DNA from: Aegilops tauschii subsp. strangulata
Taxonomy: Eukaryota; Streptophyta; Magnoliopsida; Poales; Poaceae
Reading direction: 5' to 3'
Assembly (NCBI RefSeq): GCF_002575655.3
Contig: NC_053040.3
Span: forward strand, 462,630,780 to 462,694,779
DNA length: 64,000 bases
This document shows positions 3,404 to 59,328 of the stretch, one piece after another. Below the pieces are notes generated by a model. It saw nothing but the letters and a program-made list of their open reading frames with translations. It was not told where the DNA came from and ran no database searches. Made by a program: the position numbers and the translations under genes. Positions within the stretch are counted from its first letter, which is position 1, and each line of letters begins with the position of its first letter.

Positions 3404-3813
3404 TAAAAGTACGTGGATCTGTTTTCTCTATCTGATGGGACTAGTGTGAACACATTTAATGCCAGCACCAGCATGGGAAGGAAGGCAAGGAGCAGGGGTA
3501 GCGCAGCGGTGAGCCTCCGACCAGGTGGCACCTGCCCCACGCGTGAGCGAGATCGAGCGGCCGCTCGGTTCGAAGCGCTTTTTAGATTTCAGGAAGAATT
3601 TATTGAAAGAAGTGCCGCGACGACGTTTTCCCGCCTCCCGACTTCTCGTACGTACAATGGTGTGCTGCAATTAGATGGAATGCTTAATTTTGCAACCAGC
3701 GTTTGTTGAAATAAAGGGGCCGACTATATATTAGTCACCTGATGATGATGATCTTTTTGTTCAGTCAAATTAACCGCAGCACCGGCCTGCGCAAGACGCC
3801 CCCCGCTCTCCGC

Positions 3814-4113
3814 GGCAAATTTGACAATTTTGACCTCGAAACGAAATAAATTCACAGAATGAACTGGGTGCGAAACTATTTCACACCCCTAACCCTTTTG
3901 TGTAGCGCCCGCCACGCCGGCGCCACACCCTACGGTGCAGCGCCTAGCTCCGCGGCGTTGCACCTCTGTCCACCGTGGCAGCCCACGGGCCCGCACCCAG
4001 CAGTGCAACGCCTCCGAGCTAGGCGCTGCATCTGTAATGTGCAGCGCCTAGCCGCTAGGCGTTGCACGTGTAATGTGCAGCGCCTAGCGGCTAGGCGCTG
4101 CACTGTGACTTAT
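3814..4113 (+). repeat. left TIR of the MULE
   Basis: About 300 bp, matching the inverse of 10819-11118 up to CTGTGACTTAT. Its inner half (3940-4110) is a run of near-palindromes of the form GCAGCGCCTAGC..GCTAGGCGCTGC, separated by short TGTAAT spacers. A pyrimidine-rich stretch (4130-4215) follows and looks like a transcribed leader. Confidence 0.9.
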
Positions 4114-4291
4114 CCAGCCACTTGGCTGGGCCCCCCCTCCCCCACCCCCCCCCCCCCCCCACCACACACTCTCTCACTCTCTCCCCGAGCTTTGCCCCCT
4201 CTCCCACTCTCCCCCCCTCTCAAATCTTCTTCCAAATCTTGCAAATTTGAAGAATTTGTCCGTGTATTTCGAAGTCAAACCCTCCCGCAAG

Positions 4292-4641
4292 GTAATAATC
4301 TCCGATCCCCTTGTTTTGATCGAAGTAAAGTTCTCCCATTGCTCATTTGTTGGTAGTTTGGGGAAACCCTAGTTTAGTTTGGATCTAGAGATTTGCATGG
4401 AGATGTGAGATGTTTGTTTGCCAATTTCTATGATTAGGCTTTGTTAGTATGCTAGGGTTATTCTTATGGGTGTTCTTATGTTGGTGCTAGGGTTAGGTTT
4501 AGGGCTAGGGTTATGGTTAGGGTTAGGTTTAGGGTTAGGGTTAGGGTTGTTGTTTCATATATATATTAGGGTTTGTATTCGGTGTTAATCCATGGATTAG
4601 TACTCATGGAAGCAATGTTACCTTGTGTTCATTGCTTATAG
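4292..4641 (+). other. probable 5'-UTR intron of the transposase gene, telomere-like repeats
   Basis: A donor CGCAAG/GTAATAATC at 4292 and an acceptor TGCTTATAG at 4641 sit just before the ATG at 4644. The intron contains degenerate TTTAGGG/TTAGGG repeats at about 4490-4550. These are telomere-like but short and imperfect, as often seen in plant leaders. A similar donor context (AAG/GTA..CTCCGATCCCCTT) occurs in the leader of the opposing PMD gene near 10635-10670. Confidence 0.6.
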
Positions 4642-4643
4642 GG

Positions 4644-7600
4644 ATGGGAAGAACATGTGTGTTTGTTCATCATGGGGACAAAGACGCCTTTTTGAAAGGC
4701 AATAAAGAACCAGACCCGGATGAGCTTGACATTGTGTTTGATAGTAGTCCTAGCTATGCGGAGCTCTTGCAACAAGTTAGGAAAAATTTGAATTGGATGG
4801 ACCCTAGTGATATCATTGAGTTGGAGGGAAGGCATAATGTTGGTTTTGGAATGCACATCCGTTGGAAGACAATGCGTGTAAACTCGGAGCAACGTTGGGT
4901 TGCATACAAGGAGACGGTGGCCGAATCACTAGACAAGGCTCTTGAGTTATTTGCAACGAAGAAGGTTGAGTCAAGTTTGCATTTGGACTTGAACCGGAAC
5001 CCCTCCCCTTTGGTTGCTAGTAGCCCCCCACCCTTGAAGCAAGATGAAATTGTTGAACCTCTTTTGACCCAAGAAGTGAGGCCAACATTGAGCCCGTGTA
5101 GAAACAACCAAGATGAATCTTTGCAAGAGAACAACGATGAGTATGCGGACGATGACAATGAAGTTGATCTCCATGACAACAATGTGGGTGATCTCGACAA
5201 ATATCATTTGCAAGAGACAATGGACCATTCCATCCCTTTTTCCCGTGCATATGCATCGGACTCGGATGACGATGGTCCCGATGAACAAGTTGATGCGGAG
5301 GGGTTCACGGTGAAGGAGGCCGAAGCTTTCGAGAAGGTATTTGGTCGGGATCATCGGACTACATTGTTCAAGGATGTTAGTCTCGCGGATGAAGCCGTGG
5401 TAGATGGTGGCCAATGTGTAGCTCTTGGGGTTAGGCCAAGCTCTCACCGTGATTTGGTAGACGACAAGAACCGGATTGCTAAAGGTTCTAAGTTCGACAG
5501 CTTGTTGGATTTGAAGATGTGGCTCGACAACTACTCGGTTACGCATTATCGTCCACACAAGGTGGTGCACTCGGACGTTAATGTGCGCTACACGGTTGCA
5601 TGTGCATGTGAAGATGAAAAGGAGGTCCAACTTGGACTTACAAGAGGCTGTGGTGGTGGTAGAGGTCGTGGAAAGGAGGTCCAACAAGGAGTGGCAAGAC
5701 GCCGTGGCGGTTGTCCGTGGATTGTGCGTGCAAGACCATGGAAAGGAGGTCCTACTTGGCATGTAGTGAGTTGTGTGCCAACTCACATGTGCCAAGGCAA
5801 AAGGGTGGATGGCAAGATTGTGTCCCAAGACCACAAACAACTCACGTCCGAGTTCATCGCTTACAGGCTCTCGAACTCAATATCCACACTTCCAACAATG
5901 AGCGTCCAACATGTCATTGACCTTGTGAAAGCCATCTCTCATTACCAGGTGAAATACGGCAAGGCATGGAAGGCGAAGCAAGCCGCATTTAAGATGTTGT
6001 ATGGTACATGGGAGGAAGCATACAACCGAATCCCTAGGTTGTTGTTAGCCATGGCCGCGACAAACCCGGGCATGGTTCATGTGGTCGAGCCTCATGGGCA
6101 CCAAACAACGGTTCATGAAGGAAGGAAAGTCAGAGTATTTGGCCGTGCTTTTTGGGCGCTCGAGCAATGTGTGAGGGCTTTCGAACATTGTAGGCCGGTC
6201 ATCGCAATTGATGGCACGTTCTTGACCGGACAATACAAGGGCACCTTGTTGGTTGCGATAGCAAGTGATGCCAATAACCGGGTGTTGCCATTGGCATTTG
6301 CTTTGGTTGAGGTGGAAAACAATGACAACCGGGAGTGGTTTCTGCATCTTTTGAGGACGAAGGTGTTACCCGCTCAAAGGGAAATTTGTGTCATATCGGA
6401 TCGGAATCAAGGAATTCTTAACGCCGTGGAGATTGACATTCCCGGGCATGCTCCGTTGCACCATCGATGGTGCATGAGGCACTTTTGTTCGAACTTCTAT
6501 AGGGCATGTGGCCTTAAGGAGTTGGCCGATGATCTTCAAGATTGTTGTCTCGCTTTCTCCGATAAGCGCTTCGCCACTTTGTACAGCAAATTGCTCGCAC
6601 ACAAAAAACTTGATCCCGGGGGTCAAGAGTTTCTCAATAGGCACATTCAATGCCGGAACAAGTGGGCACGTGCTTTTGATGAAGATGGCCGGAGATACGG
6701 TCAAATGACAAGCAATATGGCCGAATGCTTCAATAGGGTGCTCAAAGGTGCACGTGGATTACCCGTGACGGCAATAGTTCAATACACATTTGACAAGATG
6801 AATGCGTACTTTGTAAAGTACTCGATGGAAACCGATGCACAGATAGCGGGTGAGAACCCACGGAAGTACAAGTACAAGTTCCCACCCAAAGTTGATGAAT
6901 GGTTGCTATTTCAATCACGGAAGGCGGACTCAGAAGAAGCTATATTATATGACAATGAGGAGTGGAAGTACGAAGTGAAAGAGCCAGGAGGAACCACAAA
7001 CGATGGCCGGCAACATGGAGGTCGGGCTTTCAAGGTGTCGTTAACACAATGTGATTGCACTTGCGGGAGGCCATTGTTGCTTCATCTCCCATGCTCACAT
7101 TTGTATGCCGCCGGCCGCGTTAGGAATGTGGACATCAATCACCCATGCACCGTGAGGGAGTCCCAGTTCTCAATCATGACGGTCAAGAAAACATGGGCTC
7201 CCCGCTTTCACCCATACTTTGACCAATCACAATGGCCGGAGTATCATGGAGTTCAACTATGGCCGGATCCGGAGTTGAAGGTTGTTAAACGGGGTAGACG
7301 TAAGACAAAGCGTCTTAGAGGCGACATGGACGGATGGGGCCATGGTGGGCGCCGCGAAGCGGGCAACGACCAATTCCAAGAGCTTCGTGAGAGCTCCCGT
7401 TGTGGGGAGTGCAAAGGTCATGGCCACAACAAAAGAAAATGTACGAAACCAAGGAAAAGGTCCAAGAAAAATGATGCAAGCACAAGCCAACATGGAGCTA
7501 CACAAGGGAGCCAACCAAGTGGTAGCCAACCTAGTGGTCGCCAACCTAGTGGTCGCCAACCTAGTGGTAGCCAACCAAGTGGTAGCCAACAAGTGCGAAG

Positions 7601-7844
7601 CCAACCAAGTGGTAGCCAACCTAGTGGTAGCCAACAAGTGCCAAGGCAACCAAGTGGTACCCAACAAGTGCCTAGCCAACCAAGTGTTAGCCAACCTAGT
7701 GGTAGCCAACAAGTGCCAAGGCAACCAAGTGGTAGCCAACAAGTGCCTAGCCAACCAAGAGGTCGGCAACTTGGACTTACAAGAGGCCGTGGTGGTGGTA
7801 GAAGTGGTGGTGGTGGTCTCGGCCGTGGTGGTGGAAGAGCTTGA
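4644..7844 (+). CDS. Mutator-like (mudrA-type) transposase
   Basis: Catalyses excision and insertion of the surrounding MULE in the nucleus by binding its TIRs. I chose the ATG at 4644, directly after a likely intron acceptor, giving about 1066 residues. Residues 4-100 resemble the N-terminal PB1-like region of plant MULE proteins. A MuDR-type zinc region follows (GCPWIVRARPW, then THMC). The DDE core has DGTFLTG (Asp about 523), ISDRNQGI (Asp about 586), the conserved C..H of WCMRHF, and the Glu of NMAECFN (about 694). A SWIM zinc finger CDCTC..HLPCSH starts near 803 and a CCHC knuckle CGECKGHGHNKRKC near 920. The tail is a QPSG/QQVP repeat and a Gly/Arg-rich end. Oddities are an RG-rich insert around 5620-5700 and a TGA at 7842 that may be premature. 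Confidence 0.93.
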   Translation: MGRTCVFVHHGDKDAFLKGNKEPDPDELDIVFDSSPSYAELLQQVRKNLNWMDPSDIIELEGRHNVGFGMHIRWKTMRVNSEQRWVAYKETVAESLDKALELFATKKVESSLHLDLNRNPSPLVASSPPPLKQDEIVEPLLTQEVRPTLSPCRNNQDESLQENNDEYADDDNEVDLHDNNVGDLDKYHLQETMDHSIPFSRAYASDSDDDGPDEQVDAEGFTVKEAEAFEKVFGRDHRTTLFKDVSLADEAVVDGGQCVALGVRPSSHRDLVDDKNRIAKGSKFDSLLDLKMWLDNYSVTHYRPHKVVHSDVNVRYTVACACEDEKEVQLGLTRGCGGGRGRGKEVQQGVARRRGGCPWIVRARPWKGGPTWHVVSCVPTHMCQGKRVDGKIVSQDHKQLTSEFIAYRLSNSISTLPTMSVQHVIDLVKAISHYQVKYGKAWKAKQAAFKMLYGTWEEAYNRIPRLLLAMAATNPGMVHVVEPHGHQTTVHEGRKVRVFGRAFWALEQCVRAFEHCRPVIAIDGTFLTGQYKGTLLVAIASDANNRVLPLAFALVEVENNDNREWFLHLLRTKVLPAQREICVISDRNQGILNAVEIDIPGHAPLHHRWCMRHFCSNFYRACGLKELADDLQDCCLAFSDKRFATLYSKLLAHKKLDPGGQEFLNRHIQCRNKWARAFDEDGRRYGQMTSNMAECFNRVLKGARGLPVTAIVQYTFDKMNAYFVKYSMETDAQIAGENPRKYKYKFPPKVDEWLLFQSRKADSEEAILYDNEEWKYEVKEPGGTTNDGRQHGGRAFKVSLTQCDCTCGRPLLLHLPCSHLYAAGRVRNVDINHPCTVRESQFSIMTVKKTWAPRFHPYFDQSQWPEYHGVQLWPDPELKVVKRGRRKTKRLRGDMDGWGHGGRREAGNDQFQELRESSRCGECKGHGHNKRKCTKPRKRSKKNDASTSQHGATQGSQPSGSQPSGRQPSGRQPSGSQPSGSQQVRSQPSGSQPSGSQQVPRQPSGTQQVPSQPSVSQPSGSQQVPRQPSGSQQVPSQPRGRQLGLTRGRGGGRSGGGGLGRGGGRA
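7509..7760 (+). repeat. coding tandem repeat (QPSG/QQVP) in transposase tail
   Basis: A 12-15 bp iteration of the type AGCCAACCAAGTGGT encodes alternating S/RQPSG and SQQVP units just after the CCHC knuckle. Low-complexity repeats of this sort expand and contract easily, so copy number will differ between element copies. Confidence 0.85.
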
Positions 7845-8102
7845 CGTGGTGGTAATGGCCGTGGTGATGGTCTCGGCCTTGGTGATGGTCTTGGCCTTGG
7901 TGGTGGACTTGGCCGTGGTGATGGACAAGCGCAAGTTCGTTATAGAGGAATGTTTGGATAACTAGATGGACCGTTTCCGTATGTTCCTCACTAACTATAA
8001 TGTATCATATGTTCTTGTTTTTCCATATGTTCTTCTCTTTCATATTTGCTTCCATTTGTTCTTATTGTCCTTACTAACCATTATGTTCCACTCATTGTAG
8101 GT

Positions 8103-8519
8103 ATGGCGGCTTCCCAACCCAACAAACCAACGATGAAGGAGGATGGCGAAGATGAGATGGCCGGATGGTGGGAGAGGGCGGCGAAGAAGCTTAGAGAGGA
8201 GGATGCAGCCAAGCTAAAGAAGAAGAAGGAAGAGGAGCTTGAGAAGGAGAGGAAGCGAAAACAGAGTGCGGCAAATGCGATGCGCGCTAGGGAGCAAGCG
8301 TTGATGAGGCAAGTTGAGGAGGCACAGAAGAAGCGTCAACAGGATTTTGAAGAAAGAACCATGAAGCTTTGGGAAATTGCAGCTAAAAAAGAAGAGAGGG
8401 ACAAGCAGATATTCATGGAGAGGGTGGTTAAGGAGGCTCACCTCATAAGAAAAAGGGAGGAGGAAGAGGAAGAAGAGAGGAAGAAGAAGAAGGGAAAGGG
8501 GCCTTCCTCTACGCAATAG
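8103..8519 (+). CDS. small charged coiled-coil protein of the MULE
   Basis: I do not recognise a named family. The ATG at 8103 follows a likely intron (donor near 7979, acceptor CATTGTAG at 8100) and gives 138 residues. The product is almost entirely Lys/Glu/Arg-rich helix after a short head containing GWWERAAKK. Residues about 25-130 look like a continuous coiled coil, ending in KKKKGKG. It lies on the same strand 260 bp after the transposase stop. It could be a second product of the transposase transcript, a 3' exon of a longer isoform, or a DNA-binding helper. Its maintenance as an open frame inside a mobile element suggests it is translated, but that is inference. Confidence 0.55.
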   Translation: MAASQPNKPTMKEDGEDEMAGWWERAAKKLREEDAAKLKKKKEEELEKERKRKQSAANAMRAREQALMRQVEEAQKKRQQDFEERTMKLWEIAAKKEERDKQIFMERVVKEAHLIRKREEEEEEERKKKKGKGPSSTQ

Positions 8520-8750
8520 AGCTATGTCTCCTCTTCGATTTGCTTGTGAACTACTATGTCTCCTCTTCGATTTGGTTGTGAACTACTATGTGCCGTGAAC
8601 TACCATGTCTCCTCCTCGATTTGGTTGTTAGAACTACTATGTGCGGTGAACTACTATGTGTCCTCCTTGATTTGGTTGTACGAACTACCATGTGTCGTGA
8701 AGTAGTATGTGTTATGAACTACTATGTGTCGTGAAGTACTTGGACGCTGC
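8519..8750. repeat. degenerate tandem repeat in 3' region
   Basis: Imperfect copies of GAACTACTATGTG.CGTGAA and CCTCNTCGATTTGGTTGT alternate through this stretch downstream of the coiled-coil ORF. It is non-coding and probably 3'-UTR. Confidence 0.7.
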
Positions 8751-8869
8751 AATCTACCATGTGGCGCCTAGCTGCTGTTGCTCTCTGGATAGCTAAAAAA
8801 TTCACTAAGTCCAAGTCCAAGTGCCTCAAACTGTAAAGTACCTTCTGTTCTGGCTGCATAGCTACAGAC

Positions 8870-9060
8870 CAGTGCAGCGCCTCCAAGCTAGGCGCTGCAC
8901 ATGTCTGTAGCTATCCAGAAAAGCAACAGAAGTTTGGCTAGTTACAGACATATGCAACACCTAGCTTGGAGGCGCCACACTCTATAGTGCAGCGCCTGCG
9001 AGCTAGGCGTTGCACTGTAGAGTGTGGCGCCTCCAAGCTAGGCGCTGCATATGTCTGTAC
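8870..9060. repeat. cluster of GCAGCGCC palindromes between convergent genes
   Basis: At least four near-palindromes of the form GCAGCGCCT(N)AGCTAGGCGCTGC lie here (near 8876, 8951, 8979 and 9021), with CTACAGAC/GTCTGTAG arms around some of them. They are the same module as in both TIRs. The PMD open frame ends inside the last one, whose CAGCGCCTAG supplies the TAG stop. The cluster sits exactly between the 3' ends of the two convergent genes and could form strong hairpins in both transcripts. Confidence 0.8.
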
Positions 9061-10225
9061 CTATCCAGATACAAGCATGATAATCACTTATGCAAGGTCG
9101 GTTCACCTGCTCAGGCGTGATCGCGTCCAGCTCGCTCTTGTACAACTTGTACATTACAGAGGGATCATCCGTCGTCTCATTTAACACATCCCACTTGTAA
9201 GCCCAAGTGGGGAGTCGTAGTGGGTCGTCTTTATCGTCCCAATCCTCGTACTTCACGGTCTTAGGTCGTCCAACCGGCAAACGCTCCCAGCTCCATATGG
9301 AAAGTGCGAGCAGACAACCACCAATACCTCCAGTGTGCCTACAACTGGCATCGTCCAACTACACATAAAAAAGAACATGGTCAAATTTGCCGCAAGAGTG
9401 CATTGATAATGTATCAATGAAGTGAAAAGGAAACAACTTCATACCTGTCGATACAAGTAAGCTAGTGTCGCCGAACCCCAACTCCATTTGCTATCGAAGA
9501 CGGTCAACGCCTTCAGCCACATCCATGGAGCATTCTTTCCTGTGCCATCAGCAAACATTGTCCTCGATACCACGTACCACATGTAGACACGAGCATAAGT
9601 CTTCACCATGTCCTCATTAGCATCATCGGGGCAATGAGCGAAGTTCGATGATATCCACGTGAAAGTAGCGCCCGCTGCGACTCTTTCCTTCTTCTTATCT
9701 TCCCTTTCTGGCTCCCGAGGCTCCGGAGGAACCATACCGATAAGGGCTTGCATCTGCGCGCGCCACCCTTCAGAATCGGTGTTCATACATAAAGGATTGC
9801 CATCGATAGGAAGACCGGTGATCATAGCGATATCCTGCAGCGTCACGGTCATCTCCCCGGTCCGAAGATGGAAAGTGTGTGTCTCCGGCCTCCAATGATC
9901 AATAAGCGCGGTGAGTGCTGCAGCATTGTTGGGTGGCGTCGACCGGCGGACCAACTCAATGAAAGGGAGAAGTCCTGCCTCCCTAACATAAGGTGTGTAC
10001 CGCTCATCATAGCTCATCCCTCCAAGGGTGATCCCGTGAGACCGAAGCTTCAGAGGTGCAAGCTCCTACAAACAAACAAATCATAACATTACATATGGGG
10101 CATTTGTGTTTGAACAAACATACGAAATTCATAACACCGGCCACTTTCAGTATTACCCGCTGCTGCACCGACATAGCGTACGACCGGTGTTGATGGTCCC
10201 AGTGATCATCGAGAAGCCAAACCAT
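9038..10225 (-). CDS. plant mobile domain (PMD) protein, spliced, carried by the MULE
   Basis: Three exons on the minus strand join in frame: 10225-10157, 10065-9445 and 9358-9038, all with GT-AG borders. They give about 336 residues. Landmarks of the aminotransferase-like/plant mobile domain (MAIN/MAIL family) are ELAPLKLRSHGIT, ETHTFHLRTGEMTVTLQD, ITGLPIDGNPL, and GGCLLALSIWSWERLPVGRP. In host proteins this domain is linked to silencing and genome stability; in MULEs its role is unknown. The C terminus is short: the frame ends in a TAG within a palindromic repeat, just after a possible further donor (ITPEQ/GTGAAC), so one or more 3' exons may be missing or lost. The gene starts from the right TIR and converges on the transposase. 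Confidence 0.85.
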
Positions 10226-10818
10226 CCTAACAATTTCAACAAAGCATTCTTGTCAACACGATTATCTTTTCAATTCAAAAAAACTAAAGTAGGCCTACTA
10301 CATGCAAGATCCAAAGCATATGGTGCTTCCCCCTACTTGGGCCTACTTCATACAAATAACATGTCAATCTATGTATCCAAACTATAACATGTCAATCTAC
10401 TTCTCCATACAAATAACATGTCAATCTACTTCTCCATACAAAAAACATGTCAATCTATGTATCCAAACTATATAAATAACATGTCAACCTATCTATCCAA
10501 ACCACATTCTAATCTAACAAGGGTTCCCCAAATCTAATATACGCAAGATTCAAACAAAAGTTGCCCAAATCTAATACATGCAAGATTCAAACAAGGGTTC
10601 CCCAAATCTTCAAAATATAATATTAAAATGGATAGAAAGAAGGGGATCGGAGGAGAGTACCTTCTACGATGGATTGGTGAACAAATGCACGGACCAAATC
10701 GTCGGATCGGAAGGATTTGGGAGAGGGGATTGAGAGGGGGAGTGCAGATGGCCGCCGCCCTTTTTTCTGTAACTGCCAATGGGGAGGGTGGGGGAGGAGA
10801 GGGCTGGCGCGTTTGCAT
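10226..10818 (-). other. PMD gene leader region with short tandem repeat
   Basis: The stretch from the right TIR to the PMD start holds, on the minus strand, a pyrimidine-rich leader and a likely intron donor (AGAAG/GTACTC near 10665). At 10360-10500 there is an iteration of ATAACATGTCAATCTACTTCTCC units of about 30 bp. No other gene is seen. Confidence 0.5.
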
Positions 10819-11118
10819 ATAAGTCACAGTGCAGAGCCTAGCCGCTAGGCGCTGCACATTACACGTGCAACGCCTAGCGGCTAGGCGCTGCACATTACAG
10901 GTGCAGCGCCTAGCTCGGAGGCGTTGCACTGCTGGGTGCGGGCCCGTGGGCTGCCACGGTGGACAGTGGTGCAACGCCCCGGAGCTAGGCGCTGCACCGT
11001 AGGGTGTGGCGCCGGCGTGGCGGGCGCTACACAAAAGGGTCAGGGGTGTGAAATAGTTTCGCAACCAGTTCATTCTGTGATTTGCTTTCGATTATAGGTC
11101 AAAATTGTCAAATTTGCC
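10819..11118 (-). repeat. right TIR of the MULE
   Basis: This is the inverted copy of 3814-4113, ending GTCAAATTTGCC just before the GCTCTCCGC duplication. It carries the same series of palindromic GCAGCGCC/GGCGCTGC modules. It lies upstream of the PMD gene and probably acts as its promoter, as TIRs do in MuDR. Confidence 0.9.
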
Positions 11119-11127
11119 GCTCTCCGC

Positions 11128-45374: not shown

Positions 45375-46712
45375 TGAAAGTGCTAGTTATCGACTAGAGG
45401 GGGGTGAATAGACGGTTTTTATGAAAGTCTTCAAAACACGGGGGCTTTGAAGACAAACAATAGAAATGAACCCATTGATATGCAGCGAAAGGTAGACTAC
45501 ACAAGACAAGCCATAGTCAAGTAAGCAATGAAGTGAAAGTACGAAGACTATCAGCAGCTAGGTAGTATGGATCAGGATGGAAGATAGTATGAAGCCAAAC
45601 AACAACCAGTCTTCACACAGTGAAGACAATCAGATCATGCAAGCAGGCAATGACTTCACGAAGACAAACTGTAAAGTAAAGAGATGGGAAGGATAGAACC
45701 AGTTGCTTGGTGAGGACAAGGATTTGGTAGACCAGTTCAAGTTGCTGTGACAACTGTACGTCTGGTTAGGGAGGCTGAGATTTAACTCAGAAGACCGTGT
45801 CTTCACGTTATTCCCCTTGAGCTAAGAACACTTAGTCCTCGCCCAATCACTCTGGTAAGTCTTCAAGGTAGACTTCCAAACCTTCACAGACTTCGTTCAC
45901 TGGCAATCCACAATGGCTCTTGGATGCTCAGAAGACGCCTAACCGGCTGGAGGATTCATAGTCCTCAAGTGTAACAAGTCTTCAGATCACGCGGACAGAA
46001 AGACTTCAGTGATGCCTAACACTCTTTGGCTCTGGGTGTTTTGGGCTTTGTCCTCGCAAGGATCTCTCTCTCTCTCTCAAATGCTTCGGAGGAGGGTTGC
46101 TCTCAAACGACAAAAGCCGTGCACTAACTCTAAGCAGCCACCAATTTATGGTTTAGGGGGTGGGCTATTTATAGCCAGGAGGCAACCCGGCCTGATTTGT
46201 CCGAAATGACCCTGGGTCACTAAGGAACTGACACGTGTCCAATGGTCAGATTTCAAACACACGCGGCAGCTTGACTTGGGCTACAAGTAAAGCTGACTCA
46301 TCCAGCTCTGGATAAGATTTGCTCTCATTGTCTTCGCTCGAAGACATAGGTTTTGGTTGAGCATCACATCAGTCACTCTGACTTTGTTCACTTGGAGCCC
46401 ACTTAACAGTACGGTGGTTCCTATGACTCAACAAAGAAGAAAAGGAAACTACGAAACAACTATGTCTTCGCACTCCATAGTCTTCACGTGAATGTCTTCT
46501 CATGTCATAATCTTCAGTGTGAATATCTTCACAGACCACCATTGTCTTCAATGTCTTCACACATTTTTAGGGTCATCTCTGGTAGGTAAACCGAATCAAT
46601 AAGTGACTACTACCTGTGTTATCTTGCAATTCTCACAAACACATTAGTCCCTCAACCAAGTTTGTCGTCAATACTCCAAAACCAACTAGGGGTGGCACTA
46701 GATGCACTTACA
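45375..46712 (-). repeat. 3' LTR of the first copia element
   Basis: 1338 bp, starting TGAAAGTGCTAGTTATCGAC and ending GATGCACTTACA. It includes a CT dinucleotide run near 46065 and CTATTTATAG near 46166. It matches 58797-59328 over its first 532 bp. Confidence 0.9.
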
Positions 46713-46726
46713 ATCTCCCCCTTTTT
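46713..46726 (-). other. polypurine tract of the first copia element
   Basis: On the minus strand this reads AAAAAGGGGGAGAT immediately before the LTR, the expected plus-strand priming site. Confidence 0.85.
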
Positions 46727-47214
46727 GGTGATTGATGATAAACTGGTTGAAGTTTTCAACGGGGATAAAAGTATGTGAAAGTTAAGGATTAAGGGATTGT
46801 CTTCGTAAGTAGTAAAAGGCTCCCCATGAAGATGTGCATATAAGTAGTTTGTTTTTGAATGCAAATGCACATGGCAGGTTTTACTTGTGGAGATCCTATT
46901 TAACTTATGAATACAATTCATCATGCATATAAAGAGATAACGAAGATAATGACATGCATAATGAAAAATGGACGTCTGCGGAATGGCTTCATGCGGGATT
47001 TATCATTGCATCAAAGTAGCAGAAGAAGTAGCAGACGACCATCAGGTTTAAGTGTTACAACTCAAAGAACCAAATGTATCAAAAGACGAGAGTTGTAAAG
47101 ACTTAGCAAAAAAATAATGCAACCACCCATAAGGACCCGCTTGAAGACTATAAACTCATAAGCTTCTCCCCCTTTTGTCAGTAATGACCAAAAAGGTTCG
47201 AAGACATAGAGTAT

Positions 47215-50200
47215 CTATTCGTTCCCATCAGGTGCCGATGATGGAGCAGGGTCGACTTTGGAGTTAGGTGGTGCAGACAGGCCTGACGCAGTGTCGAGAT
47301 GCAGTGCAGCCATGGTCGGTGAGGTGGCGTCGTCTTCTTCATCGATGACTCTCGCAACAACAGTTGCAGCCGAAGATGAACGCTCAGAATCTTCAATTGA
47401 GGGAGTGCGGCGCCAGCTTGCATTTTGTGGAGGCCTGGAGTCAAACTTGAAGTCCTCAGTGAAGCCACCTTCGCGAAGATCGTCTTCAGGACAGAGCAGT
47501 GTGAGACTCTTCCAGGACCGTCGACAGGCTTCATGGGCAAGAAACGAGTTCTTGGTGGCCAAGTATCAAATGCGATTGACATCCATCAAGATATTCTGCA
47601 TTTGACGCTTTAGCCAGTCATGATGCTTATCCTGCTTCTGATGCAAGGCCACAAGAAGCTCTCGGTCATTGAGAACACGAGATCGCTTCCGAGGCCTTTG
47701 GGCAATCGTACTTGTAGTAGCTTCGGTCTTGGCGCGATGGGGCACTCTCATATTTCCAGCCAGAGGATAAACGGGGGTTGCGGCATTGGGAACAAGAATT
47801 CCCTCCATTGGTTGCGTGAAGCTTTGATGATCAGCATTATGAAGATGTAGAGGCTTCTTGGCAGGCTCAGGGTAGATGGCTTCAATGGACAGATCAACCT
47901 CAGGCAGGAAAACAATGTGGTTGCGCGCTGAGGGCTGATAGTCAATAGTGGAATGGAGCTTGATCAGGTGCATCACCCATGGAGCATAGAACTTCAGGCC
48001 AAACAGATCAATCCCAGACGCAGCAAGTTGTCTGATGAAGAAATCCTGGGTATTGAATCTGATGCCATTGATGATGTAGAACACCAAAGTCTTCATGGTT
48101 CCTTCTAGTTTGGCTTCAGAAGAATGTCCCTTGATCGACCATAGAGTATGCCTCAGGATATGATATACGGTGCGTGGAAAGTACTCGAGGTCCTTCACGA
48201 AGAAATCTTTGGGGTATTTAGCATCTTGAGGCAATGGCTTCATCATACTAAGCATCTGACGCATATTTGGCTCAGGCCTCTGAAAAATACTCTGCAGTTC
48301 ATTTCTATGAAGCTGACAACCAGGCTCGTACAACTCAACTGGAGTGGGCAGGGAAGTAAGCTCGATTATGTCTTGAGATTTGGCTTCATGATGCACATCA
48401 CCTAACATCCACTCAAGGATCCATGTCTTCGGATCCCTGTTGTAGCAGCGAATATGGAGTGTGGCATAGAACTGCAGCAGAAGCTCTTCATTCCAGTGCT
48501 CTTTGTCTATCACAAATGGCAGAAGACCTACATCCCTGAAGCAGTCAAGAGCTTCTTCAAGACAGGGCAGCCTGGCAATAGCTTCACAATCAAGACGCAT
48601 GTGTGGAAAGATGCGCTCTTGATTGTACAGAATGCAGGAGTAGTAGCTTCGCTGTTGATGGCTCCAAAATCGTTCGAAAGAGATCTTTGGCTTCGTGTAG
48701 GGATTCTTGGCACTATCAAAGAAGGTGTTGTGCTCTCTGAAGCTGTGCACGCTAAAGGAATCATGTGTCATTGCAGTACTCGGAAGCCTTGGCAGCCTAG
48801 GCTTGGGCTTTTGAACTTGTGGCCTCTGCTCCACATGATAGTCATACTGTGGTCCGAGAGCAGTAGGAGGAACCATAATAGGCCATCTCACAGTGACCAG
48901 TTGACCTTCACGATTGAATGCTTGTTCCATGGTATGAGGCCTTGGAGGTGGAACAATGGCTTCAGCATTCACATTAGCTTCAGGCTCCACATTGTCGTCA
49001 GCCATGACAAAGTCATTGGCTTCAGCGGCGTTGTTTGTGGCAGCCTCAATGTTTTCAACCTCCGTTCGTTCAAGAATAGGAGGGTCTGGCACAATCACAT
49101 TCTCCTCGATAATGACTTGATCTATAGATGGGGGTGTGGCAACTCTTTCTTCTTCTCTTTCTCCTTTATCTTCATCGGCTGATGCAACCGGAATGTCTTC
49201 AGCAACTTTGGCTTCAGACTCAGAGACATTCACAGTGGGGGTGGCTTCAGGAAACACTTGACGTGCGACTGAGCTTTGGTGTACTTCCCCCTCTGCAATG
49301 CTCGACATGGTGACCTGTGGCCTGGGGCCTTTGCGAAGCCTGCAAAATGCGGGCGACGCCTTTGGTGAAGGAGTGGTCTGCACCATGTAGTTGTCGTCGT
49401 CAAGCACCGGAGTGGTGACTTGAGGTGGTGGTGTTCTTAGTGTCTCATCGTGTACTAGGGTGTCTTGCTGTGGGCGCTCGGCCCATGAGTCATCCTAAGC
49501 AATTGACATCAATGGACGACCAATGCTGATAAGTTCACTGCTCGTTGGAGCAGGCGATGATACCGACTGGGGCTCGAGTTGAGGGAGGACTACATCATCA
49601 TTAACATTGTCATCATGACCAATGTCTTCAACTGTGATGGGGTCAACAGCTGGAACTTCTTCATCTTCTGGAGCCTCTGTGGAAGCAGGCTCATGGATCA
49701 CAAGATGACGCTCTTGGTTGTTTTAGGCTGGAAGAGCAACAGAAATGGGTTCAACAATGAGGGGCTCAGAGGCCGCAGCACGCTCTTTCTTTGAAGACTT
49801 TGTCTTCAATTTCTTCTTGGATGGGGCATCATCAGAAGCATCCTTGTGCTTGCGTTTCCTGGCTTCAGCTTCAGCTTCCCTTGTTTTCTTCAGCTCTGAA
49901 GCTGCTGAGGTGACCTTTGGCTTCAAGCTAGTCATGCTAGCAGGGAAAACAATGTGAGGTTCTTCCTGCCTTGATGCTTCAGTTTGGGCCGCAACAGACT
50001 TCTTCTTTTGCTTGGCAGCCATCCTGGGGTCGATGCCAGGACGCCCAAGGGCCTTTCGCTTTTCAGCTTCATTGTGGGCTTGAACACATTTCTCTGCGAA
50101 GTACTTCATGCGCTCTCGTGATCCTTTAGCTTCATCACGCTTCTTGTGGAACTCTTCTTTGAGCTCATGCATCATCTTCTTGAAGATTTGAACATCTGCC

Positions 50201-51483
50201 ACACTGAGCTTGGCCATGTTTTTCTTGAAGTGTGCCTTCTCATAATCGATCTTGTTTTTCAGCTCGACGAATTTCTGAGCAAAGGCCAATTCATTAGCAA
50301 TGGCTCCGTGGAATGTGACGCTGATGTCCATAGGCAGCTGAAGATCGTCAATACTGATGCTTTGGTCATCGAACCACTCATCGATGAAGTTGTTCAGAAT
50401 GTCAACATCAAAGAGGGGCAGATCGTTGAAGATCTCTGCCTCTTGCTTGCTCTTAATCAGCATCTCAAGTGCTTCATCACCAAGATCTTCATCACTTGAA
50501 AGATCAATGGTGTGTTCCTCATTGCGCAGAACGGCAACAGGAGTCAGACCATGCCCAGAAATCTTCTTGGACTTCTTGGTTTTATTGGACTTCTCGGCCT
50601 TTTTGGAGACACGAGACAAATCTTCAGACTGCACACTGAGTTCAGGAGGTGCAGTGGTCAAGGGCTTCACAGTCGAAGCTTGTGGTGTGGCAGAGGGCTT
50701 CGAAGCTTTTGACTTCCTTTTCTTTTGCTTCGGTGGAGTAGGCGCATCTTCGAAGTCTGCGTCTTCAGCTGATTGCTCCACAATGGCCCTCTGGGCAACA
50801 ATGTGGGAGAGGATCCCATCGAAGCTGGTGAAGGGGCTGATGACATTTGGATTGGCATCACGTGTACCATCCGGCCTAGGAGCAGATGGACCAGGGTTGA
50901 AGTTGAGTCCAAGATCCTTCTTGTTCTTTGTAGCTGACTCCTTGGCAAACTGATAGTTGCGCTTAAAGAGATTGTCTTCACGACACCATAACATGGATGA
51001 TGGGTCGGCATTCTCAGGCTTCGGTCCTCAGACCATGCATGGGTAGAAACCTTGGGCAATAGCTTCAGGCTTCGACTTTGGCTGCAGGTTCCTGTACTGT
51101 ATATCGCCCCATGGGCGCTTGATGGCGTTCTTCTCAGCATATTCGGCAGTGACGAACTTGTACTTGAACCACTGTTCTGCCCAATATCTTCGAATCCATT
51201 GGATTCGGGTCTTGTGCTAGTTGTAGTTCTCCTTTGGATCAGTTTTGTACATTTCATATAGATCTGGAGGCAGATCTAGTGCTGTGTTGCCTCTGCGCTG
51301 CCTGCCACCTTTCCTGACAGATTTTTCTGTGGCCATGATATTCAGACTGAATGGCTTCAGAACAATGAATGACTTCCTTCTACTGGTCAGACAAGAGCTG
51401 GCTTCAGGGGAGTGAATATGATGCTGTAAGAACTCTGCAAATGAATGCAGACTATGAGAACCAAGGGATTCTCCCACGAACAT
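47215..51483 (-). pseudogene. accessory (envelope-position) ORF of the copia element, five stops
   Basis: Located between RNase H and the 3' LTR, where Sireviruses carry their so-called envelope-like ORF. One reading frame runs from 51483 (likely ATG at 51336) to a stop at 47215 with no frameshift. It is interrupted by TAG 51217, TGA 51028, TAA 49723, TAG 49495 and TGA 47566. The central part is basic, Lys/Ser-rich with PKQKKRK-like nuclear-targeting stretches. The region around 48700-47900 holds a globular block with WNEELLLQFYATLH and FYAPWVMHLIKL. It resembles the plant transposon-protein domain that Pfam lists as PF20167, but that is from memory. No signal peptide or clear membrane segment is evident, so an envelope function is doubtful. 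A homologue lies at 61364-64000. Confidence 0.8.
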
Positions 51484-51899
51484 GTACCTGTGACAGCATT
51501 AGAGATGCGAGGGAAGGGTAAGAGGTCATATGCATTCTCAGAAGATTTTGAAGAAAAATTAGTTTGAAGACATTGACCTCATAGAGCGAAGACATTCACT
51601 TATTTGAAGAGAGTTGGTTCCAGATTTGTACGAATCCATGAATAAGTACAAGTGAGGAATCTAACTAGGTATGAAGCATAAGTGAATATTCTTAGCATGA
51701 TATGAGATGCAGATAACGACAGATCCAAACTTGGAAGTGAAGAAACCACTTTTGGTTGAGGTGGATGGATTTGACGGATCGAAAAGGCAGTAAAAAGTGA
51801 GATTTAATTACCGCTGACGAACTGCTAGACCAGGCAGAGTTAGAAGCCGAGCAGTTCAATCTCTCGCGCCCTAACTTGGCGGCGGAAGACACCTACGGC

Positions 51900-52090
51900 G
51901 GCGATGGAGAGGTCGAGGTCTGCGGCCGGCGTGAGGACGGCGTCGAAGAGGTCGCGACAGTTAAGCGCTTTGTCTTCGGCGTCAACGCGAACTAGTGGAG
52001 GCGCTAGGGTTTGAGCGAGGTGGCGAGGTGGAAGAAGAGATATTGACTGCGAGGTGTGCGTATTTATAAGGAAAGGGACAACACAACGCA
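51900..52090 (-). promoter_or_regulatory. candidate internal promoter and leader of the accessory ORF
   Basis: On the minus strand a TATA-like CTTATAAATA (52070-52061) is followed about 50 bp later by CAAACCCTAGCGCC. A GC-rich leader comes next, and then a pyrimidine-rich stretch leading to an acceptor-like TGTCACAG near 51488, just before the ORF. This is the architecture of a grass host gene start, not of retroelement interior. Confidence 0.5.
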
Positions 52091-52780
52091 ATTACGAAGG
52101 TGCCCCTAGCGGTTCACATCTGAAGGACACGTGGCCTGCATGCAACTTATTGGAAGTTGTTCCATGTTCCCACGCATGCCTGGATTGTCAGGTGGTCATT
52201 CCGGCTTCTCCGATATTCAGGCAAAAAAGATATGTCATTAAAACAGATTTAAATGTTTGTCTCTGTGTCTTCTACTGACAAGGACTCAGAGAAGACATTT
52301 GACAGGTTTCAACAGATTGCATATGACTTAGATAGATAGAATTTGAGGTAGAAGCACACAAGGGGTTAGGGTCCGATCACATTCACTTAGATCAAGAAAA
52401 AACAAGTATGAAGACATAGCTATAAGTGAATGCTGTAGAGGACAGAACACACATATATATATTTATATATCAGACCAACTCAATATTGCGAAGATAAACC
52501 TCGAAGTCAAATCAATGTTGAAGACAAACCAAATGCGAAGACTATGCAATTATGACGCCAAATGAAACACTTCAATAAGAATTTGGTGGTGGCGTTACCC
52601 GCCGTATAGGAAGTATTAGACTTCGACACGGCGCACAATTATCATGGCGCTCCGAAGTCAAATTCCGCGTTAATGTATTCACACTTAGAGTGTATGTCTT
52701 CATTGATTGAAGATATATGTTACTTCGTGTGTTGCACATCTAAGTCATTAACATGCATAAGCGTTAGGATGTGTGTCCAG
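52091..52780. other. copia element interior between pol and accessory ORF
   Basis: No open frame is supported. The stretch holds AT-rich DNA, with an iterated ATATAT run near 52452-52470. It could contain the upstream part of the accessory gene promoter. Confidence 0.4.
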
Positions 52781-55700
52781 TTACAGGACATTTGAGGATT
52801 CTAAGATATTTAGCTCACACCGCAACTTGCAAAACCTTTTCTCATCCAAGGGATTTGTGAAGATATCTGCCAATTGCTCTTCAGTGTTGACGTGAATGAT
52901 ATCAATATCTTCCTTCATGACATGATCTCTGAGAAATTGATGACAGATCTGAATGTGCTTTGTTTTCGAGTGCTGGACTGGGTTGTTGGCAATCTTGATG
53001 GCGCTTTCATTGTCGCAGTAGAGTGGCACTTGCTTCAGGTGGATGCCATAGTCCTTGAGAGTTTTCTTCATCCATAGAAGCTGAGCGCAGCAAGATCTAG
53101 CAGCAATATATTCAGACTCAGCAGTGGAGAGGGATACACAGTTCTGCTTCTTCGAAGACCAACAGACAAGAGATCGTCCAAGAAAGTGACATGTGCCTGA
53201 TGTGGACTTGCGATCAACCTTGTCACCAACATAATCAGCATCTGAGAATCCAACTAGATCAAACTCTGAGCCCTTTGGATAACATAATCCTAGTGTTCGG
53301 GTGTAAGCCAAATATCGAAGAATTCACTTCACAGCTAAGTGATGTGATTACTTTGGTGCCGCTTGGAATCGGGCACACATGCAAATGCTAAGCATTATAT
53401 CTGGCCTAGATGCACATAAATAGAGTAAAGAACCAATCATGGAGCGGTATACCTTTTGATCGAACTCTTTACCATTGTCGTCGGGACCCAATTGACCTTT
53501 GGTTGGCATTGGCGTCATGTATCCTTTGCAATCTTGCATTCCAAACTTCTTCAGGCATTCTTTGAGGTATTTCTCTTGTGATATAAAGATGTCGTTGCTC
53601 TGCTGACGGATTTGAAGACCGAGGAAGAATTTCAGCTCATCCATCATGGACATCTGATATTGCTCTTGCATCATATGTCCAAACTCATCATTGTATCTCT
53701 TGTCAGTGCAGCCGAAGATAATGTCATCCACATAGATCTGGCACGCAAACAGTTCACCATCGTATGTCTTCGTGAACAGAGTGGGATCCAGGGAACCAGG
53801 TTTGAAGCCTGTGCTCTTCAGGAAGTCTTTGAGTGTGTCATACCAAGCACGAGGGGCTTGTTTAAGGCCATACAGTGCCTTGTTGAGCTTGTATACCATG
53901 TCAGGATGCCTTGGGTCTTCAAAACCAGGTGGTTGTGCAACATACACTTCTTCTTCAATTTTGCCGTTGAGAAAGGCACTTTTTACATCCATTTGGTATA
54001 GAAGAATGTTGTGATGGTTGGCATAGGTAGCAGTATGCGAATGGCTTCAAGTCTAGCCATGGGAGCAAATGTTTCATCGAAGTCAATCCCTTCTACTTGA
54101 GTGTAACCTTGAGCAACGAGACGAGCCTTGTTTCTGACAACTTGACCATGCTCATCTTGTTTGTTACGATAGATTCATTTGGTGCCTATGATGTTATGCT
54201 TGCGAGGATCAGGACGCTTAAACAATCCCATACATTGTTCAGCTCGAACTGTTGAAGCTCTTCTTGCATAGCTTGAATCCATTCAAGTTCCATGAAGGCT
54301 TCATCAACTTTCTTTGGTTCTGATATAGAGACAAATGCAGAGTGCCCACAGAAATTTGCTAGCTGTGTTGCTCTTGAACGAGTGAGTGGACCAGGTGCAT
54401 TGTTGCTATCAATTATCTTCTCAATCTGTACTTCATTTGCAACACGAGGATGAACTGGACGAAGATTTTGCCCTTGCTAATCATTGTCTTCATCTTCAGC
54501 ATTGACTTCAGGCTGAGCAGTGTCTTCGGGTTGACTTGGTGCAGAAATGATGATTTCTTCTTCAGCATGTGCCTCTGAAGGTATGATTTCTCCAGTACCC
54601 ATAAGCTTGATAGATTCACTCTGTGAGGCTTCATCTAGCACATTTGGCAGGTGCTCTCTTTGCGAGCCGTTAGTCTCATCAAACCGCACATCCACAGTTT
54701 CAACCACTTTATAGTGAAAGAGATTGAAGACTCTGTAGGAGTGCGAGTCCTTTCCGTATCCAAGCATAAAAACTTCATGTGCTTTCGGTGCAAATTTTGA
54801 AGTGTGATGTGGATCCTTGATCCAGTACCCAGCACCAAATACTCCGAAGTAACTAACATTTGGCTTCTTACCAGTTAGAAGCTCATAGGATGTCTTCTTT
54901 AGAAGCTTGTGAAGATAAACACGGTTGATGACGTGGCATGCAGTATCAATGGCTTCAGGCCAGAACTTTCTTGGAGTCTTGTACTCATCAAGCATCGTCC
55001 GTGCCATCTATGAGGGTTCTGTTCTTGCGCTCCACGATGCCATTCTGCTGAGGTGTGTATGGAGCTGAGAACTCATGTGTGATGCCCAATGTATCAAGAT
55101 AAGGCCGGTGTTCTTGAATTCTGTGCCATTGTCACTCCTGATGTGCTTGATCTTGATGCCATAGTTCGTCATGGCACGATTGGCGAATCGTCTGAAGACA
55201 TCCTACACTTCATTCTTGTAGAGGATTATGTGCACCCATGTATATCTTGAGTAATCATCAACAATAACGAAGCCATAGAGGCAAGCAGTGGTAGTAAGGG
55301 TAGAGTAGTGAGTACAGCCAAATAAGTCCATGTGAAGCAGCTCGAAGGGATGAGATGTCGTCATGATTGTCTTCGAGGGATGCTTGGCCCTAGTCATCTT
55401 TCCAGCTTCGCAGGCACCACACGGATGATCCTTCTTGAACTTGACGCCCTCGATGCCTACGACATGCTTCTTCTTTGCAAGAGTGTACAAGTTCCTCATG
55501 CCGGCATGCCCTAGCCTCCGATGCCAGAGCTAGCACTCTGAAGCTTTTGCTAGAAGACATACGGCCAACTGTGGTCCTGCTGAGAAATCTACCATGTACA
55601 GATCGTCTTTTCGATACTCTTCAAAGACTAGAGATTTGTCAGATTCCATAAGAACAAGGCAACGATATTTTCCAAATATCACAATCATGTTCAGATCACA

Positions 55701-56573
55701 AAGCATTGAGACAGACATTAAGTTGAAACCAAGGGATTCAACAAGCATCACTTTATCCATCTGCTGATCCTTTAGATTGCAACTCTACCTAGACCCAATA
55801 CCTTGCTTTTACCAGTGTCAGCAAATGTGATGTGACTCTTCTCAGATGGACGTAGGGTTGAATCCATGAGAAGACTTCGATCACCAGTCATGTGGTTAGT
55901 GCATCCACTGTCCATAATCCATTCTGAAGCCTATGGTGTCATACCCTACAGTGTAGTTTGGGGGATAGGCTTCACCAAGGGTATTGTGAAGCATAAACAT
56001 TTGACGAACAAGCGGGTTATGAAAGTTCAGATCTTGGTTATTAGGGTAAATAGGATGTTTGTCAAGGAATCCTCGAACAAAATACATAGTAAGACCATTT
56101 GGGCATTTTATCTTGCGCCCCACAAGATGTTTTAGGTCCCCAGCATAAGCATCAGACGCCTTTGATTTTTGGCTGGAGACCTTTCCGTGCAAAAGAGAGT
56201 TAATTTTTCTTAACCACCCACATTTTCAGGGGTGGCTTGGAAGCAATGAGTCTAAGTGCAGCATATGAGAACTTCGGCTTTGGAGCCCTAGCAAATAGCC
56301 TTGCAGGTGGTGAATAATACTCATAAGAATAAGCAGAAAAGTTCTTGGTCTTATGAACATAGCGGTTTGATGAAACTCACTCATATTCATAGGCCTGAGT
56401 ATGGTTTCCCTGCAAAACATTGGTGTTAGGGTGACTCTGGTGAGACCTCTATCTGTATGAAGCCTTTGGACCATATGAAGCCTTTGGTCTGGGGTTTGTC
56501 TTCTTTCTAGGTGGCGTCATGATGAAATTCACAGGAAGATTCTCAAGACAACTTTTGGGCACCCAGATCTTCT
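52781..56573 (-). pseudogene. degenerate copia pol (protease, integrase, RT, RNase H)
   Basis: Domains appear in copia order on the minus strand. They are an aspartic protease site (DSGCTNHMTG near 55910), the integrase zinc region (WHRRLGH near 55540) and core (LLHMDLFG, VIVDDYSRYTW, 55340-55230), integrase C-terminal part (54477-55007), reverse transcriptase (53992-53348 with KQAPRAWYD and the YVDD active site) and RNase H (53311-52781 with FSDADYVGD and STAESEYIAA). The parts lie in different frames separated by stops, so no functional polyprotein can be made. I have not joined them. Confidence 0.9.
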
Positions 56574-58730: not shown

Positions 58731-58780
58731 AGCTAAAACTCCAGGTGGTTAAACCGAATCACACAGAACAAGGGAGCATC

Positions 58781-58796
58781 TTGCTCTGATACCAAT
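58781..58796 (-). other. tRNA primer-binding site of the first copia element
   Basis: On the minus strand ATTGGTATCAGAGCAA directly follows the LTR end. It matches the 3' end of initiator methionine tRNA. Confidence 0.9.
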
Positions 58797-59328
58797 TGAA
58801 AGTGTTAGTTATCGACTAGAGGGGGGTGAATAGGCGATTTTTATGAAAGTATTCAAAACATGAGTGCTTTGAAGACAAACAATAGAAATGAACCCATTGA
58901 TATGCAGCGAAAGGTAGACTACACTAGACAAGCCATAGTCAACTAAGCAATGAAGTGAAAGTACGAAGACTATCAGCACCTAGGTAGTATGGATCAGGAT
59001 GGAAGATAGTATGAAGCCAAACAACAACCAGTCTTCACACAGTGAAGACAATCAGATCATGCAAGCAGGCAATGACTTCGCGAAGACAAACTGTAAAGTA
59101 AAGAGATGGGAAGGATAGAACCAGTTGCTTGGTGAGGACAAGGATTTGGTAGACCAGTTCCAGTTGATGTGAAAACTATACATCTGGTTAGGGAGGCTGA
59201 GATTTAACTCAGAAGACCGCACCTTCACCTTATTCCCCTTGAGCTAAGAACACATAGTCCTCGCCCAATCACTCTGGTAAGTCTTCAAGGTAGACTTCCA
59301 AAACTTCACAGACTCCGTTCACTGGCAA
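58797..59328 (-). repeat. 5' LTR of the first copia element, interrupted
   Basis: This 532 bp stretch matches 45375-45906 in length and order. It stops at CACTGGCAA, where the second element begins. In the other LTR the sequence continues TCCACAATGGCTC, so about 806 bp of this LTR should lie beyond the window. Confidence 0.88.

Follow-up and report, generated by a model that had tools for sequence, protein, structure and literature searches.

A selected plant mobile domain gene in a high-copy MuDR-type MULE family of Aegilops tauschii, and its possible VANC-like role

Introduction

Mutator-like transposable elements (MULEs) that carry a plant mobile domain (PMD) gene are known from several plant groups. 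Table 1 of Dupeyron 2019 (PMC6446971) describes the groups MUDR, MUDRAVI2, MDR and MULE-Monocots as having a MULE transposase, mostly with a SWIM domain, a 9-bp target-site duplication, terminal inverted repeats (TIRs) of up to several hundred base pairs and, in many or most members, an antisense PMD ("PMD in antisense for most of them" in the MUDR group); the table reports neither selection tests on individual copies nor a motif array or a mechanism. We analyzed a 64,000-nucleotide stretch of Aegilops tauschii subsp. strangulata DNA (contig NC_053040.3, positions 462,630,780 to 462,694,779), hereafter called the window, in which positions 3814-11118, bounded by two copies of GCTCTCCGC, form an element that shares the tabulated traits. 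The element has suffered an internal deletion and belongs to a high-copy MuDR-type MULE family; in longer members of the family, the transposase gene is accompanied by a small K/E-rich open reading frame (ORF) and a convergent PMD gene.

The genes of maize MuDR start from the TIRs. As in the window element, they are two in number and run in opposite directions (PMC9168764), the second being mudrB where the window has a PMD gene, so that the two are likened by layout and not by sequence. Abermu, a MULE that Gao 2022 (PMC9168764) describes from barley and further grasses, also resembles our family in having ORF1 and ORF2 in one direction and a reverse ORF (ORFR) in the other, a 9-bp target-site duplication, a very high copy number and an ORFR with a Ka/Ks below 1 (0.39-0.56); the authors compare this ORFR with mudrB. 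We do not accept our element as a member of Abermu, since the TIR ends differ (138-145 bp with the ends GGG...CCC, against 300 bp and GGC...GCC in the window), and the 826-amino-acid ORF1 of Abermu is a further difference; the two are set apart by published description, not by sequence. The terms "PMD" and "mobile domain" have no occurrence in the main text of PMC9168764. A preliminary description of the window presented the mudrB-like placement of the PMD gene as a new observation, but the antisense PMD of PMC6446971 and the reverse ORF of PMC9168764 precede it, and the arrangement is already known. The rice MULE-PMD fusions P0157 and P0161, of the type reported in Ikeda 2017, likewise combine a MULE transposase with a PMD (41-43% identical over 183 and 112 residues), which unlike that of the window is read in the same direction within one protein.

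In Ikeda 2017 (PMC5418596), PMD-C is stated to have been captured twice by MULEs and an anti-silencing function is suggested, a proposal that a 2021 review (PMC8616336) repeats. What the MULE-borne PMD does has been a standing question from Ikeda 2017 onward, if not earlier, and PMD has been called a domain of unknown function. Another accessory MULE gene is found in VANDAL21 of Arabidopsis, which, like our family, has a short motif in noncoding arrays: VANC proteins bind short motifs, often tandem repeats of varying length in noncoding VANDAL DNA (PMC5735166). A 2026 review classes VANDALs as non-TIR MULEs, whereas the window element bears TIRs, and VANC21 has no detectable sequence similarity to the grass PMD, any resemblance being one of predicted fold. 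Our evidence is that the PMD is selected and not cargo, and we offer as a proposal a concrete mechanism, in which the PMD would bind an amplified 9-bp motif.

Results

The family is large, and its PMD and transposase genes occur together. Genome searches gave 1,393 candidates for PMD exon 2, of which the best 150 were scored (92-100% identity), and 4,135 for the transposase, of which the best 120 were scored. Downstream of the transposase, a convergent PMD match lies within 30 kb in 87 of these 120 places and within 9 kb in 82; not one of the 120 has a PMD match among those listed only in another orientation, so that the geometry is convergent in 87 of 87. The remaining 33 places do not necessarily lack a PMD, as the PMD matches are only the best 150 of 1,393. 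Nine of the 33 were picked at every fourth rank and the first five inspected: four hold PMD exons 1-5, partly or wholly, and no element part was recognized in the fifth (L084). Both genes are also present in all six longer stretches picked by hand, with transposase deletions in L043 and L044. The presence of the PMD in relatives, a check proposed in the preliminary description, is therefore borne out in these samples, which are best-scoring copies and not a random draw. Kin of the PMD occur in barley, wheat, oat and ryegrass.

We then compared exons 1-5 (459 codons) in 51 copies, made up of the 30 top PMD matches (the window's included), 20 copies taken as every third of rows 91-150 (L042 and L044 among them) and the hand-picked L043. 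Nearly all of the five exons are held by 45 copies, and in 20 the five exons are open, starting with an ATG and free of stops and frameshifts, two of these (L059 and L062) having an altered splice acceptor. For the null expectation, each change was moved to another site of identical three-base context, the reference letter at each site being the commonest one and not an inferred ancestor. Variants private to one copy look nearly neutral, with an omega of 0.84 (P 0.09) and 15 stops against 14.1 expected, and those common to at least four copies gave 0.48 (P 0.0015), with no stops against 1.8 expected. Singletons are not exactly neutral, ranging from 0.73 to 0.87, with P 0.035 in a 25-copy set. 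By exon, the shared variants gave 1.22 in exon 1, 0.37 in exon 2, 0.49 in exon 3 (P 0.07), and 0.59 and 0.69 in exons 4 and 5 (both P about 0.24). The copies were taken from rankings by protein similarity to the window copy, a limit of the selection test because it favors few changes in exon 2. Exons 3-5, which lie outside the search query, provide a fairer test with a weaker result; their omega is 0.59 (P 0.0185) for variants in at least two copies and 0.63 (P 0.15) for those in at least four.

In the set of 25 copies, the shared PMD variants gave 0.45 (64 variants, P 0.0005) and those of the transposase catalytic part 0.63 (19 variants, P 0.24), so that the transposase comparison is short of power; six mudrA variants common to at least four copies gave 0.21 (P 0.028). 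The same genome holds a second PMD family, that of P0016, sampled by coordinates in one member stretch (L089:1332-2464), which is 73% identical in DNA to the window PMD and whose protein is 81-83% identical to P0012, P0016 and P0023; TGCARCGCC, the motif discussed below, was not found in its 2.5 kb, and no TIR was recognized there. Comparison with this second family gave an omega of 0.45 for L018 (bootstrap 0.32-0.64, dS about 0.5) and of 0.42-0.47 across seven copies. Among 24 elements, PMD and transposase distances are correlated (r 0.52), with 4 of 5,000 permutations as high. The difference between private and widely shared variants is the pattern of an element gene, selected while copies beget copies and decaying later. 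We are accordingly very confident that the PMD is an element gene that travels with the transposase and is under purifying selection as the family spreads; neutral evolution, which the preliminary description had named as the mark of passenger DNA, does not describe it.

The PMD gene of the window copy itself is no longer a working one. The PF10536 match on the minus strand is strong (E 9.3e-44, 150.4 bits against a cut-off of 34.9) and covers profile positions 13-239 of 347, an incomplete domain, and relatives at 90-95% identity extend beyond the end of this copy, P0003 by about 220 residues. Exon 1 ends with ...SVQQR in annotated relatives, earlier than a simple reading gives, and the final 22 residues of the third exon as first described belong to intron 3. 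Aligned to L039, the window copy keeps the same course to the end of exon 3 and for a further 40 bases into intron 3, and then passes, at about 9067, into an array unit; TCT is common to both sides of this joint, and exon 4 onward is lost. Because other copies have matching splice sites for five exons, and three more blocks on the 3' side find counterparts in annotated relatives, the full gene probably has about eight exons. The partial profile match, the splice comparison and the L039 alignment together rule out the complete three-exon PMD gene initially described for this copy, of which the convergent course from the other TIR stands. With both of its TIRs intact and its transposase tail broken, the window copy could at most be moved by the proteins of other copies.

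In 30 matched pairs, the mudrA-PMD spacing is 3463 bases in the window, 5000-6621 in 26, and 1470, 7220 and 17624 in the others. Five of the 51 copies, the window copy among them, have lost the 3' part of the PMD, and in a sixth exon 5 is incomplete. Since L015, L022, L029 and L050 are the other copies without the 3' part, deletions that hit the PMD recur in the family. A 12-base terminal motif, GGCAAATTTGAC, lies inverted within PMD intron 2 (9380-9391) and at the same place in five of six long copies. One match of the window PMD among PDB sequences, to lumazine synthase (E 0.00068, 104 residues), was set aside, being absent from the profile searches and the fold comparison.

The noncoding parts of the element are marked by the 9-bp motif TGCARCGCC (TGCA[AG]CGCC). 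It occurs 20 times, 8 and 7 times in the two TIRs and 5 times between the genes, mostly in facing palindromic pairs 18 bases apart. None was found in the window transposase, ORF2, PMD or leaders or in the other 56,677 window bases searched, and 200 Markov shuffles of the element contained 0.1 on average and 2 at most. L039-L042 have 7-9 copies in the TIR compared, 18-30 in the array, 0-1 in the PMD gene and 0 in the compared part of the transposase and ORF2. The array is built of 150-bp units, 3.7 in L039 and 6.7 in L040; in L044 a similar array is present in diverged form, and L043 has lost the array region. A short motif in noncoding tandem arrays, of the kind bound by VANC proteins, is thus present in the family, and its binding by the PMD is putative. 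The host DOWN motif CATGCAGTTT has TGCAG in common with TGCARCGCC, a stretch of five bases that serves as a lead only; further text on it was not found in the accessible part of PMC7156037.

Discussion

Our best explanation of the locus as a whole, to which we give a probability of about 0.48, is that a deleted copy belongs to a family with a selected element PMD that has a VANC-like role. In this mechanism, the PMD protein would have a fold resembling that of the VANC21 DNA-binding region and would bind to the TGCARCGCC palindromes, which are dense in both TIRs and in the central array. It would thereby lift host silencing from the element, upon which both TIR promoters would fire. Among the mechanisms considered, a VANC-like role has the most support, with odds that are roughly even, and for the full statement that the grass PMD is the counterpart of VANC, which acts against silencing in the VANDAL MULEs of Arabidopsis, with a VANC21-like DNA-binding fold, TGCARCGCC as its target and the lifting of silencing as its effect, the chances lie at even or slightly below. 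The suggestion in the preliminary description that the PMD counters silencing is strengthened by the motif arrays and by the predicted fold resemblance to VANC21 and is still a proposal.

The fold resemblance comes from structure models of PMD relatives. P0003, modeled with 66 sequences, reached a mean predicted local distance difference test score (pLDDT) of 46, and P0018, with 101 sequences, one of 56; the low-confidence P0018 model has a predicted fold resemblance to DNA-bound VANC21. Two results weigh against the VANC-like reading: a Foldseek search with the P0018 model returned nothing significant, and neither the PMD profiles nor P0018, searched against PDB sequences to a limit of E 10, listed VANC21. 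An unpublished crystal structure of VANC21 is mentioned in PMC8756742. In the open literature searched, no paper was found to connect PMD with VANC through their fold, subscription papers, including any on 9lnj, being outside this scope. A scan of viral contigs gave no match.

We consider it possible, though clearly short of even odds, that PMD and the DNA-binding domain of VANC share a single fold. The grass MULE PMDs would then be a second, TIR-bearing branch of sequence-specific anti-silencing proteins that target TGCARCGCC arrays, and MAIN and MAIL1 would by extension be related DNA-binding proteins. If this is true, common descent would connect a silencing factor of the host with an anti-silencing factor of a transposon. 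A VANC-like PMD would also provide a route to the host function of MAIN and MAIL1, and it would help to explain the spread of a large MULE family in Triticeae genomes despite silencing.

The strongest of the other readings, slightly less probable than the shared fold and compatible with the remaining rivals, takes the TGCARCGCC palindromes for MURA sites or for a structural or regulatory device and places the target of the PMD elsewhere. Transposases bind TIRs, and 15 of the 20 motifs are in the TIRs, paired as palindromes 18 bases apart. The longer copies, however, hold most sites in the central array, where a cut-and-paste transposase should not need them, and the length of the array varies among copies, as described for VANC targets.

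Next comes an unlikely reading in which the PMD acts through protein contacts, as a decoy or dominant-negative form that disturbs the host MAIN/MAIL1/PP7L complex without binding element DNA. In its favor, a 17-row tree groups the element PMD with PMD-C-like host loci (split 100/100). This tree includes seven host loci from the same genome, two labeled PMD-C-like and five PMD-B-like in this analysis, and neither MAIN nor MAIL of Arabidopsis. MAIN and MAIL1 are described as acting in silencing together with PP7L, and the anti-silencing proposals of PMC5418596 and PMC8616336 fit this reading as well, but it leaves unexplained both the motif arrays and the match to DNA-bound VANC21.

Marginally less likely again is a PMD that serves as a MURB-like helper of insertion or transposition with no silencing role. 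The convergent, TIR-started position is that of mudrB, and insertion in maize is said to depend on mudrB (PMC9168764, PMC6446971); against this, the PMD-C kin are described as functioning in gene silencing, and recent activity is reported for rice elements that have no reverse ORF (PMC9168764). The capture of a host gene by chance as passenger DNA, a reading prompted by the gene capture known of MULEs and by the copies that have lost PMD sequence, is very improbable and is rejected on the co-occurrence and selection data, namely the uniform geometry in the 87 places with a listed PMD match, the open exons in 20 of 51 copies, the kin in four other grasses and the purifying selection both in shared variants and between families.

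Annotation of the element and the window

The features of the element are collected in Table 1. Its target-site duplications are perfect, as first described; a 9-bp duplication, TTGGCTAAA, also flanks L043 on both sides, yet L044, the ends of which are clear, shows no clean one by eye in its flanks (about 215 and 7917). The 300-bp TIRs of the preliminary description are likewise correct and form part of 302-nucleotide inverted arms (3812-4113 and 10819-11120) with 96% identity. The mudrA and PMD genes converge, one from each TIR, and their leaders are homologous to each other beyond the TIRs, so that both genes look as if they share a type of promoter and leader. The MuDR-like layout, with a second gene that converges from the other TIR, is found both in the window and in the long copies.

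Table 1. Features of the MULE and its target-site duplications, in window coordinates
Feature	Position	Strand	Basis
Left target-site duplication	3805..3813		Same letters as 11119-11127
Left TIR, mudrA start side, 8 TGCARCGCC copies	3814..4113	+	96% inverted repeat, motif count
Proposed 5'-untranslated-region (UTR) intron of mudrA, GT..AG	4292..4641	+	GTAATA donor, AG acceptor ahead of ATG 4644; leader homology; predicted
mudrA-like transposase frame, 1066 aa to stop in Gly-rich tail	4644..7841	+	PF10551, relatives, copy comparison
Proposed intron, mudrA tail to ORF2, GTATGT..TTGTAG	7977..8100	+	Sequence; predicted
ORF2, 138 aa, K/E-rich	8103..8519	+	Long relatives; barley MURA C termini
Central tandem array remnant, 5 core motif copies	8870..9067		Repeat search, motif count; 150-bp unit in relatives
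Deletion junction, PMD intron 3 to array unit, 3-bp microhomology	9066..9067		Alignment to L039
PMD exon 3, 84 codons	9107..9358	-	Splice sites common to copies and annotated relatives
PMD exon 2, 207 codons	9445..10065	-	Profile match, genome copies
PMD exon 1, 23 codons	10157..10225	-	Annotated relatives, copies
Proposed PMD 5'-UTR intron, GT..AG	10227..10660	-	Sequence and mudrA-leader homology; predicted
Right TIR, PMD start side, 7 TGCARCGCC copies	10819..11118	-	Inverted repeat, motif count
Right target-site duplication	11119..11127		Same letters as 3805-3813

The transposase frame contains the PF10551 MULE domain (E 1.7e-18, 67.3 bits against a cut-off of 27.6), and its SWIM profile score, 19.2 bits, is slightly below the cut-off of 19.6. 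Residues that we take to be the DDE, SWIM (CDCTC...CSH) and CCHC (CGECKGHGHNKRKC) motifs are visible by eye in the translation, in agreement with the preliminary description. The stop at 7842 is in frame, and beyond it the frame runs to about 7961 with a second stop further on in the tail; the second stop is absent from five compared copies, and L039 has neither. ORF2, which lies on the same strand and had gone unmentioned in the earlier account, is present in five of the six long relatives compared, open over 138-139 amino acids in four and shortened in one. It is a likely coiled coil and matches the C terminus of barley MURA models (e.g., P0141 and P0166). Because these barley transposase models end with it, ORF2 may be the last exon of mudrA, or it may start from its own ATG.

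Several repeats lie within the transposase gene. Telomere-like repeats of the TTAGGG/TTTAGGG type are found at 4500-4560 inside the proposed 5'-UTR intron, and Tandem Repeats Finder (TRF) reported AACCCT repeats at the transposase-side end of L043 and L044. A 30-bp tandem repeat at 7509-7759 encodes the QPSGS-rich tail of the protein. A 50-bp piece of the frame at 5622-5671 resembles the tail at 7759-7810 and sits in a stretch of about 93 bp that is absent from L043 and L044.

Elsewhere in the window, an F-box/LRR-like open frame at 14277-15086 matches leucine-rich repeats (LRR) of the AtMIF1 type (E 4.2e-26). A Copia-type long terminal repeat (LTR) element occupies 45375-59329, with 533-bp repeats that are 95.7% alike, and its gag and reverse transcriptase are encoded by the minus strand; between the reverse transcriptase and one LTR it has long frames at 47569-49494 and 49726-51027 without a Pfam match.

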